From: Sulfurospirillum sp.
GTDB taxonomy: Bacteria > Campylobacterota > Campylobacteria > Campylobacterales > Sulfurospirillaceae
Assembly (NCBI GenBank): GCA_016735235.1
Contig: JAERRW010000084.1
Location: forward strand, 1-40,941
Reading direction: 5' to 3'
Length of the DNA stretch: 40,941 bases
Shown in pieces: positions 348 to 3,449 of this stretch. Each line of letters starts with the position of its first letter. The first letter of the stretch is position 1. The notes under the pieces were generated by a model. The model had not been told where the DNA came from. It ran no database searches and saw only the letters and a program-made list of their open reading frames with translations. The position numbers were made by a program, and so were the translations under genes.

Positions 348-3300
348 TCAGTCCTCTACTGTGTTTTTAGACTCATCTTTATAGCAATTCAATGTAGAAT
401 TGAAATCCCATTTATCTGCATACATTCCATAAAAATAGTTACTTTCATTACATGTTACATGTTTTTCATCCTTGCCTTTATCAAAATGTAGATGAAAAGC
501 ATAAATATTAATGTTAGTCTTAACTATTTCATTGACTAATTTTTTTTGATTATTAATAATTCTTCTACTGCTTGCTATGTCAGTAATGCCTAGTTTTTTA
601 AGATATTCAATCTTGTTACCTTTAATTTTTCCTAAAATACCGCCAGTTGGCATAGGAGATTTAATTTTTGCACTAATGCCTTCTTTTACAGCCTCCCAAG
701 TAAATAACTCCATCATTAATCTATTTTTATCAACAAACTTATTAGAAAAATCCATTGGAGTATTCACTTTATCTGTTACTAATATTGCATCAGAATTATT
801 TTTAAACCATAGATTTATGTCATTTATATCCATCGGACTATATTTTTTATATATTTTCTGCTCTTTAAATATCTTTTTACTTGGAGGCAACGCTCCTTTA
901 TAGCCAGTAATTCTTGCCCAACTTTTCCAGTCATGTGCTGCTACATAAATATTATCTGATGTTTTTATAATATCTAGCTCAAATAAACGAAATCCTTTTT
1001 TATAACTTAGATTAAGAGCCTCTAAAGAGTTTGTATAATTATGACCATCAATTTGACCGCCTGCATGAGCTATAAATCTATTTGTATCTTTTGCATACAC
1101 ATTTGCTTTTGCATTGTTTTTCTTCTTATCTTTTTTTAATTGTTTCAACTCTTTTTTAGATAAAGGTTTTATGTAACTAGATATAACATGATTTAAAGAT
1201 GTTTTAGATGAGTATTCTTTTATGTTATTGTTTGTGTTCGAATAGGCAATATAAGCCACTCTTCCATTCAAAGTTTGCAGTAACTTAAAGTTAAGTTCAG
1301 AAAGTTTTTTTTGAAATCCTGGCCAATTACTTCTTATAGCATCGTGAGAGGCAATCGCCCAAAACTTCTTTTTTTTAATTAATGATTCTAGTTTGACTAA
1401 AAATTGTTTAGCATCATCTTCAATGCCATAAATATCAAAACTCTCAACATTGAATTTTCCTTTACGATCAACTGTTAGGAGATTGACTCCTCGAGTTAAT
1501 CTAAAGTTTTTTTCAGCAGTTTTTATTGTGCTTGCAATATATCTAGAGGTTATAAGCTCCGAACTAGTTATTGAAATAATATTAGGGGCATATTGAACTT
1601 TTTCTTTTTCTTTTTTTTCAAAAGAGGAGATATTATTTGATTCTGTAATTAATTGAATATTCTCTTTAGTGAAATTTATTGTATTACCTTTTTTATGAAT
1701 ACCAACTTTTTGTTTATTTCCAAAATATGCTTTATCTATTTTGCCATTTTTAGTGAAAACTACTAAGTGTAACCGTTTATGCCTTGTATCATAAATGTGA
1801 GGATTAAATGCACTCTTTACACTGCTTTTTCTTTGTCCAATCAGCACCATTTCATAGTTAAAAGTAAAATCAAATACTTCATCTTGATATTTTTTAGAGA
1901 CTTCATCTTGTATTAAAGGCATGCTACTTGTATCTAGACCAGATTTAATTCTTAATCTGTTACCTGTTATATTAATACTTATACCATCATTATAAGCTCT
2001 TCTATCTAGCGATGCTTTGTTGAGCGATGTTAATTTAACTCGATTTTTTTTAAGAAATGAATCAATGTCCTCAGTTTTAATAAAATCAACTAAAAATTTA
2101 GCATTTGTCTTTATCTCTGCACCATCAAGGATAATACGAGGTAACTCTATTTGATAAATTGTATCTTTTGTATCTTTATGTAGATTTTTTTCATCCACAT
2201 TAGTTATAAGGTATAGTTGCCTTGTCTCCTTTCTAAGCTTATCAAGAGCAGGATGGTGACTTCCCATTAGTAGATGGTCTGGAAAAATATAAATTGATGT
2301 ATTTTCAAGTAAAGAATTTTCTTTTAAATACACTATCAAATCATTTATTAAATAATCAACAGCTGATGCTGAAAACTCTATGTCATTATCTTTTTTTGAT
2401 ATAAATTGTTCCATATTTTTATCATAAACACCATTTGGAAAGTGAGTATTCATTGTCAATAAAAATAATGCAAAAGGCTTATCTTTGTCTTTTTGGAATT
2501 GTTTGATTTGAAGTTTAGCTTCATTAAATAGGTCATGGTCATGAAGACCATTTTTAACTTTTTGATATTTGCCAATACTATTAACTTCTGAAATTACTGG
2601 AATGCCATATGCACTTAAAATATCAGATTTGCCTGCATATTCCTTATTTCCAATTATATATTTACTGTTATATCCAGCGTTATTTAAAATATGCCCTAAT
2701 CCAGTCAATTTAACAGTGCTAGCTCCTTGAAAAGAGTTATTTTCTTGATCTTTAAAAAATGCAGGCATACCAACTTGATGATTATATAATGAGCCAGCGG
2801 TCCAATCACCTCCTGGACTTTCTGGCATTTGATTATAAAATGTCCACTCTTTAGACAATCTACTTAGATTAGGGGTTATATTATTGAAGTGTTTTCCTAG
2901 AAATCCCTGCTCTAAAGACTCAATAGAAATTACAATAATATTTTTACCTTTTTTAGCAGTAATATTATTTGGAGTAACATATTCTTTTGGATTTATCCCA
3001 ACATCAATTAATGCTTGATTAAAACTTTTTTCCTCAGCATTAAGAATCTCATATGTTTTATAAGCTTCATTAAAAATGCCATTTGGTAAACTCAATAAAA
3101 TAAAAGATATTAAAACCGCTGGTATAAAAAATTTATTTTTGCGAAGTTTGGAAGTATTCATCTTTTTCGATATGAAATAAAATACACTACTAAGTAAGAT
3201 AAACAATACTATGAAAGATAAAGCTTGTAATACAAATTGGAAACCAGGCCCTTTAATTGCATCTAGATTCATGTGGGTATAAAATCTATAGTCGACAAAT

Positions 3301-3449
3301 CTTTCAGTCATATATAATGCTACAAATTCCAAAGTTGAAAAGAGAGACGCTACAAGTGAAAATATAATTCTTCTGTTCTTTCTTTTAATCTTAGATGAAA
3401 GAAAGAACAAAAAAACTAGCCAAAGAAATATTTGATAAATATAGAACAT
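348..3449 (-). CDS. Membrane-anchored multidomain protein: N-terminal TM helices, AlkP-superfamily phosphoglycerol transferase (OpgB/LtaS-like), ILEI/FAM3-like domain, C-terminal GDPD-like domain
   Basis: N-terminal hydrophobic segments. Sulfatase-fold motifs: IVISIESLEQ (E177), GGDWTAGS (candidate nucleophile T217), NTH (H336), FPDH (D391/H392). Residues about 619-738 (ITSSELITSR...LTRGVNLLTVDRKGKFNVESFDIYG...VAYIAY) resemble ILEI/FAM3. Residues about 790-1000 carry GDPD-type motifs FIAHAGG, FELDI, AAHD, MELF. Confidence 0.85.
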   Translation of the reverse strand: MFYIYQIFLWLVFLFFLSSKIKRKNRRIIFSLVASLFSTLEFVALYMTERFVDYRFYTHMNLDAIKGPGFQFVLQALSFIVLFILLSSVFYFISKKMNTSKLRKNKFFIPAVLISFILLSLPNGIFNEAYKTYEILNAEEKSFNQALIDVGINPKEYVTPNNITAKKGKNIIVISIESLEQGFLGKHFNNITPNLSRLSKEWTFYNQMPESPGGDWTAGSLYNHQVGMPAFFKDQENNSFQGASTVKLTGLGHILNNAGYNSKYIIGNKEYAGKSDILSAYGIPVISEVNSIGKYQKVKNGLHDHDLFNEAKLQIKQFQKDKDKPFALFLLTMNTHFPNGVYDKNMEQFISKKDNDIEFSASAVDYLINDLIVYLKENSLLENTSIYIFPDHLLMGSHHPALDKLRKETRQLYLITNVDEKNLHKDTKDTIYQIELPRIILDGAEIKTNAKFLVDFIKTEDIDSFLKKNRVKLTSLNKASLDRRAYNDGISINITGNRLRIKSGLDTSSMPLIQDEVSKKYQDEVFDFTFNYEMVLIGQRKSSVKSAFNPHIYDTRHKRLHLVVFTKNGKIDKAYFGNKQKVGIHKKGNTINFTKENIQLITESNNISSFEKKEKEKVQYAPNIISITSSELITSRYIASTIKTAEKNFRLTRGVNLLTVDRKGKFNVESFDIYGIEDDAKQFLVKLESLIKKKKFWAIASHDAIRSNWPGFQKKLSELNFKLLQTLNGRVAYIAYSNTNNNIKEYSSKTSLNHVISSYIKPLSKKELKQLKKDKKKNNAKANVYAKDTNRFIAHAGGQIDGHNYTNSLEALNLSYKKGFRLFELDIIKTSDNIYVAAHDWKSWARITGYKGALPPSKKIFKEQKIYKKYSPMDINDINLWFKNNSDAILVTDKVNTPMDFSNKFVDKNRLMMELFTWEAVKEGISAKIKSPMPTGGILGKIKGNKIEYLKKLGITDIASSRRIINNQKKLVNEIVKTNINIYAFHLHFDKGKDEKHVTCNESNYFYGMYADKWDFNSTLNCYKDESKNTVED

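Follow-up and report, generated by a model that had tools for sequence, protein, structure and literature searches.

A putative periplasmic protein of Sulfurospirillum with fused OpgB-type, ILEI/FAM3-like and HAGG-type GDPD domains

OpgB-type, pEtN and LicD transferases all form phosphodiesters on glycans. OpgB shifts phosphoglycerol from phosphatidylglycerol onto sugar in the periplasm (PMC3818809). Among GDPD-family enzymes, GlpQ has an arginine (Arg-44) beside its first catalytic His and is strictly sn-3 specific; sn-glycerol-1-phosphoryl ends derived from phosphatidylglycerol are not cut by GlpQ-type GDPDs (PMC7086022). In the stem domain of POMGnT1, GlcNAc is bound by an Arg/Asp/Arg triad, R129, D179 and R207 (PMC9802357). 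In the literature searched, no description of an AlkP-ILEI-GDPD fusion was found.

Such a fusion is encoded in the window, a stretch of 40,941 nucleotides from Sulfurospirillum sp. (contig JAERRW010000084.1). A single open frame with an ATG start occupies 348-3449 of the minus strand and gives a protein of 1033 aa (Table 1). From the N- to the C-terminus, four TM helices are followed by an AlkP domain of OpgB type, a beta-domain, and domains of ILEI/FAM3 and GDPD type. Hydropathy peaks at aa 1-19, 28-46, 72-90 and 107-125, and the loops taken as cytoplasmic (aa 20-27 and 91-106) each contain 6 K/R and zero D/E. Because K/R are concentrated in the loops after TM1 and TM3, the positive-inside rule places everything past residue 130 in the periplasm, as predicted for an inner-membrane protein whose catalytic parts face that compartment. 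The initial annotation had already described N-terminal TM helices and three domains, and this architecture was borne out: the AlkP domain by PF00884, the GDPD domain by PF03009, and the ILEI domain by its homologues and predicted fold. Missing from it were the minus strand, the beta-domain at aa 485-610, the Arg-to-Ala change in the GDPD domain and the wider pattern of gene neighbours. At positions 1-120, also on the minus strand, the contig end cuts off a partial frame that resembles the beginning of MetH (ILDGAMGTQIQ).

Table 1. Features of the fusion gene, in coordinates of the window.
Feature	Position	Strand	Basis
Whole gene including stop, 1033 aa	348..3449	-	Open frame; near full-length homologues L048 and L050, split L049
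Four TM helices, aa 1-129, N-terminus out (predicted)	3063..3449	-	Hydropathy and loop charge
AlkP (OpgB/LtaS-type) catalytic domain, aa 165-450	2100..2957	-	Pfam, NCBIfam, LtaS 4UOO, conserved residues
Beta-strand-rich domain, aa 485-610, role unassigned	1620..1997	-	Predicted strands; homologue comparison
ILEI/FAM3-like domain, aa 619-745; R653, D703, R730	1215..1595	-	Homologue profile, fold, triad
GDPD-type domain, aa 790-1033; HAGG instead of HRG	351..1082	-	Pfam, fold, conserved residues

In Pfam scans of the protein the Sulfatase/AlkP family PF00884 matched aa 169-396 (E 1.5e-15). The NCBIfam phosphoglycerol transferase I model NF009027 covered aa 1-415 only (E 2.8e-34) and scored 118.8 bits, far short of its equivalog cut-off of 572. 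The catalytic set proposed initially (E177, T217, H336, D391 and H392) was found at the named positions: these residues align with the catalytic Thr, metal ligands and substrate His of E. coli OpgB, and they are invariant in all homologues covering those positions. The GDPD domain, for which H795 had been put forward as catalytic, matched PF03009 at aa 803-874 with 27.6 bits in the whole protein (cut-off 23.6) and 30.7 bits when searched alone. H795, E824, D826, H839, D840, D893 and K894 are invariant in nine GDPD homologues. Directly after H795 stands Ala796, and all nine homologue rows have A or G there. Phosphatidylglycerol yields sn-glycerol-1-phosphate, which GlpQ does not cut, so a GDPD acting on its partner's product must differ from GlpQ; the Arg-to-Ala change at 796 fits such an altered specificity, short of proof. 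In the alignment, the HAGG motif is also present in the GDPD-family lysoplasmalogen phospholipase D 7YM0. After cleavage by lysoplasmalogen phospholipase D, the phosphate stays with the lipid.

The ILEI assignment proved right, with weaker sequence support. The window domain itself had zero Pfam matches at E<=1, while PF15711 was matched by 4 of 5 homologous ILEI domains (best E 2.6e-6) and the family profile retrieved FAM3B (E 0.085). The predicted domain matched FAM3C (5LC4; E 5e-4, prob 1.00), FAM3B was also retrieved, and comparison with the POMGnT1 stem (5GGJ/5GGL) gave a TM-score of 0.62 (target length) at 3.8-3.9 A (prob 1.00). The structure models were built from few sequences (mean pLDDT 50.5 and 57.4) and bear on the fold only, not on active-site geometry. 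The counterparts of the POMGnT1-stem Arg/Asp/Arg triad, R653, D703 and R730, were equated through the FAM3B alignment and what we take to be the POMGnT1 residue spacing, and are invariant in all five ILEI domains. With this triad conserved, the domain could bind a glycan, the role that had been suggested for it. A survey of the phylum (387 genomes) showed strong matches to the ILEI subfamily only in the window genome and G364, each time on an AlkP protein. As a separate observation, the ILEI-GDPD half (window 351-1652) aligns to the central spike knob and petal domains of phage phi812 (9EUL) over 404 columns with poor rmsd; 9EUL is possibly a second ILEI and GDPD pairing.

The beta-domain was modelled with 8-9 strands (pLDDT of the block mostly 55-86), and the fold search with the full model gave no clear structural match for it. 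It is present in four related proteins (L048, L049, L050 and L041) and missing from the fusion at L090. The full AlkP-beta-ILEI-GDPD architecture occurs in the window, L048, L049 and L050. Other combinations are AlkP-ILEI (L040), AlkP-beta alone (L041) and AlkP-GDPD lacking both beta and ILEI domains (L090). As the L090 fusion manages without it, the ILEI domain is not essential to the pairing of transferase and GDPD.

That pairing extends well beyond the fused proteins. Sequence was the sole criterion in gathering the GDPD subfamily; gene neighbours were inspected only after that. In 13/13 informative loci a headgroup transferase was fused to the GDPD or directly beside it, a count that is small and comes from related loci, hence no probability is attached; the same is true of every locus above 90 bits with flanks read. 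The GDPD is fused to an OpgB-type transferase in the four lineages with the full architecture (window, L048, L050 and, across two frames, L049) and in L090, where the fusion sits within a glycosyltransferase cluster. Separate OpgB-type genes lie directly beside the GDPD gene in L042, L043, L044, L045, L091 (a partial gene at the contig edge) and L092, and in L038 the direct neighbour is a CptA-type pEtN transferase. Two loci are set apart from these: L051, a degenerate fusion described below, and L039, where a polysaccharide region retains no more than a remnant of the GDPD, interrupted by four stops. Around 30 lower-scoring canonical GDPDs, mostly from Bacteroidota, had no comparable transferase neighbour apart from a few weak AlkP-family matches. 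In three of the Bacteroidota loci (L093, L095, L098) canonical GDPDs lie near weakly matching alkaline-phosphatase-type genes.

Two further observations concern the surroundings of these genes. In Prevotella oral taxon 299 (L114:3800-5777, reached via PLSDB) a membrane-anchored GDPD relative directly follows a LicD gene, the one LicD case among the 13 informative loci; it lies in a polysaccharide cluster where, judging by eye, the other genes resemble glycosyltransferases, a flippase and a UDP-galactopyranose mutase. In Helicobacter-like genomes three OpgB-like partner genes (L043:7917-9471, L044:5638-7571, L045:8599-10558) are split in two frames, with poly-G tracts of 9, 10 and 12, respectively, at the splits. 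Poly-G tracts are a common sign of phase-variable surface genes, so these partner genes are likely phase-variable, which suggests a switchable surface modification.

The recurrence of the enzyme pair as neighbours in distant bacteria makes it probable that transferase and GDPD act successively on a surface or periplasmic sugar. For the window protein we give slightly better than even chances to the following reading: working in the periplasm, it transfers phosphoglycerol from phosphatidylglycerol onto a glycan, which its ILEI domain holds, and its GDPD domain hydrolyses the resulting phosphodiester. Using T217 and a metal that E177, D391 and H392 coordinate, the AlkP domain would take glycerol phosphate off phosphatidylglycerol and free diacylglycerol. 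DgkA, which would recycle this by-product, is present in the window genome, as it is almost everywhere. The acceptor of the glycerol phosphate would be a hydroxyl group on a glycan of the periplasm or the surface, other than the osmoregulated periplasmic glucan, since OpgG/MdoG (PF04349) is missing from the window genome (G000) and nine others (10/10; the E. coli control was positive). No glycan genes lie beside the window gene. The ILEI domain would grip the glycan through its Arg/Asp/Arg triad, and the GDPD would then hydrolyse the glycan phosphodiester made by the AlkP domain.

Hydrolysis could have either of two outcomes: glycerol phosphate is freed (editing or turnover), or glycerol is freed and the phosphate is left on the sugar. 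We lean slightly towards the phosphomonoester, as attaching a group only to remove it directly would be futile and HAGG is common to 7YM0, whose phosphate stays on the lipid side; taking the decoration off again, the trimming suggested initially, is nearly as likely. The fuller scheme, in which the AlkP domain borrows phosphoglycerol, the GDPD cuts the glycerol off and the periplasmic glycan ends up phosphorylated without ATP, is a tentative proposal that we consider rather doubtful. The GDPD may also act on another diester than its partner's product.

Salvage of lipid and phosphate would explain the pair without a glycan product: the AlkP domain would hydrolyse phosphatidylglycerol and the GDPD would cleave soluble glycerophosphodiesters. 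Canonical GDPDs do cleave such soluble diesters and some from Bacteroidota adjoin weakly matching AlkP-family genes, but the kinship to OpgB transferases, the glycan genes around L090, L114 and L039, the conserved ILEI triad and the poly-G tracts in partner genes all argue for a glycan, and salvage appears unlikely.

The proposed OpgB/LtaS kinship was upheld on both sides, by NF009027 and by a match of the AlkP-domain profile to LtaS 4UOO (E 1.9e-10), and the predicted fold of the full model is nearest to PbgA/YejM, 3LXQ and LtaS. The LtaS match and fold raise the prospect of a poly-glycerolphosphate synthase, with the AlkP domain adding several units in the manner of LtaS and the GDPD setting the chain length. 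However, the AlkP profile is nearer to OpgB, which adds single phosphoglycerol groups, and in the LtaS alignment the FWNR stretch that lies near glycerol phosphate is not kept. No LtaS model was among the NCBIfam matches of the window protein. Chain synthesis of this kind is accordingly judged improbable. Slightly more improbable still is that the GDPD domain serves in binding or docking rather than hydrolysis: the change from HRG to HAGG and the existence of a relative lacking the catalytic His (L051) would fit, but both His and all metal ligands are invariant in the nine homologues and the enzyme 7YM0 also reads HAGG.

Co-linear homologues, which the initial annotation had recommended looking for, were detected by the genome-collection scan in three unrelated assemblies: an unclassified MAG, GMC10 (L048; 62% in the alignment), the Bathymodiolus heckerae thiotrophic gill symbiont BHECKSOX (L049; 57% in the first part, 66% in the second) and a Flavobacteriales MAG (L050; 40%). 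Given independent assemblies, the architecture is no assembly accident. A chimeric contig or chance fusion, to which the position near a contig end and the absence from five same-genus genomes might point, is refuted by the whole-protein homologues L048 and L050 and is barely credible. In L049 the frame changes just before the ILEI domain at an A-rich stretch, ILEI-GDPD being open in the second frame; either a sequencing error or real decay would explain this. The broken gene (L049:759-5582) adjoins a transposase, presumably IS66-like judging by eye.

The gene was not found in five genomes of the same genus. In the window it adjoins glmS, and in all five of those genomes another upstream gene is at glmS. 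No second copy was found in its own genome. That genome has no RuBisCO, which led to the rejection of Candidatus Thiobarba as the source, and its RpoB reached at best 47% among the chromosomes in PLSDB. High-scoring GDPDs occur in 1/346 genomes of the phylum of L050 and 2/321 of the class of L049, and clear relatives in 3/297 genomes of the phylum of L048. This thin spread, the absence from same-genus genomes and the phylum-crossing homologues suggest transfer between lineages. Base composition was considered as a sign of foreign origin and is not diagnostic (GC 0.283 in the gene vs 0.326 in the window, with ordinary GC3). Spread on plasmids was rejected, matches in PLSDB being limited to the OpgB/LtaS type and a single Prevotella GDPD, as was a phage origin: the ILEI-GDPD half was unmatched in the phage collection and the ILEI scan of viral contigs was empty. 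IMG/VR contained one degenerate relative (L051:4560-5558), on a contig with phage tail-type genes: a piece of an AlkP domain joined to a GDPD relative that has neither catalytic His. It represents capture, decay or misassembly.

These comparisons link headgroup transferases to a distinct HAGG-type GDPD subfamily, the two recurring together across several phyla. For the subfamily they propose a testable part in the phosphate chemistry of glycans, not in lipid salvage. The phosphomonoester product, if true, would allow sugars to be phosphorylated in an ATP-free compartment, and the two-step logic would extend to the unfused gene pairs whose transferase is of the OpgB, pEtN or LicD type.

Among described systems, the phosphoglycerol transferase I/II of E. 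coli, OpgB (MdoB), shares with the window protein the N-terminal TM helices, the periplasmic AlkP domain and the catalytic residues (19% identity overall), but it has neither an ILEI nor a GDPD domain and its acceptor is the osmoregulated periplasmic glucan. The lipoteichoic acid enzymes LtaS and LtaP share the superfamily and catalytic core; unlike the window protein, they polymerise glycerol phosphate on a glycolipid and have no fused GDPD or ILEI domain. A protein type from a same-order genome likewise has an ILEI domain of the same subfamily behind its OpgB domain, but lacks the GDPD. Its 770-aa representative (L040:6732-9041) reaches 510 bits with the OpgB model, whose cut-off is 574, and its genome lacks OpgG. 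FAM3/ILEI proteins and the POMGnT1 stem have the fold and the Arg/Asp/Arg triad in common with the window domain, which differs in being bacterial, in its place between two phosphate enzymes and in its weak sequence match. The GDPD domain shares its fold and its metal and His set with GlpQ and 7YM0, and HAGG with 7YM0 only; compared with GlpQ, it has Ala in place of Arg-44 and is fused to a transferase.
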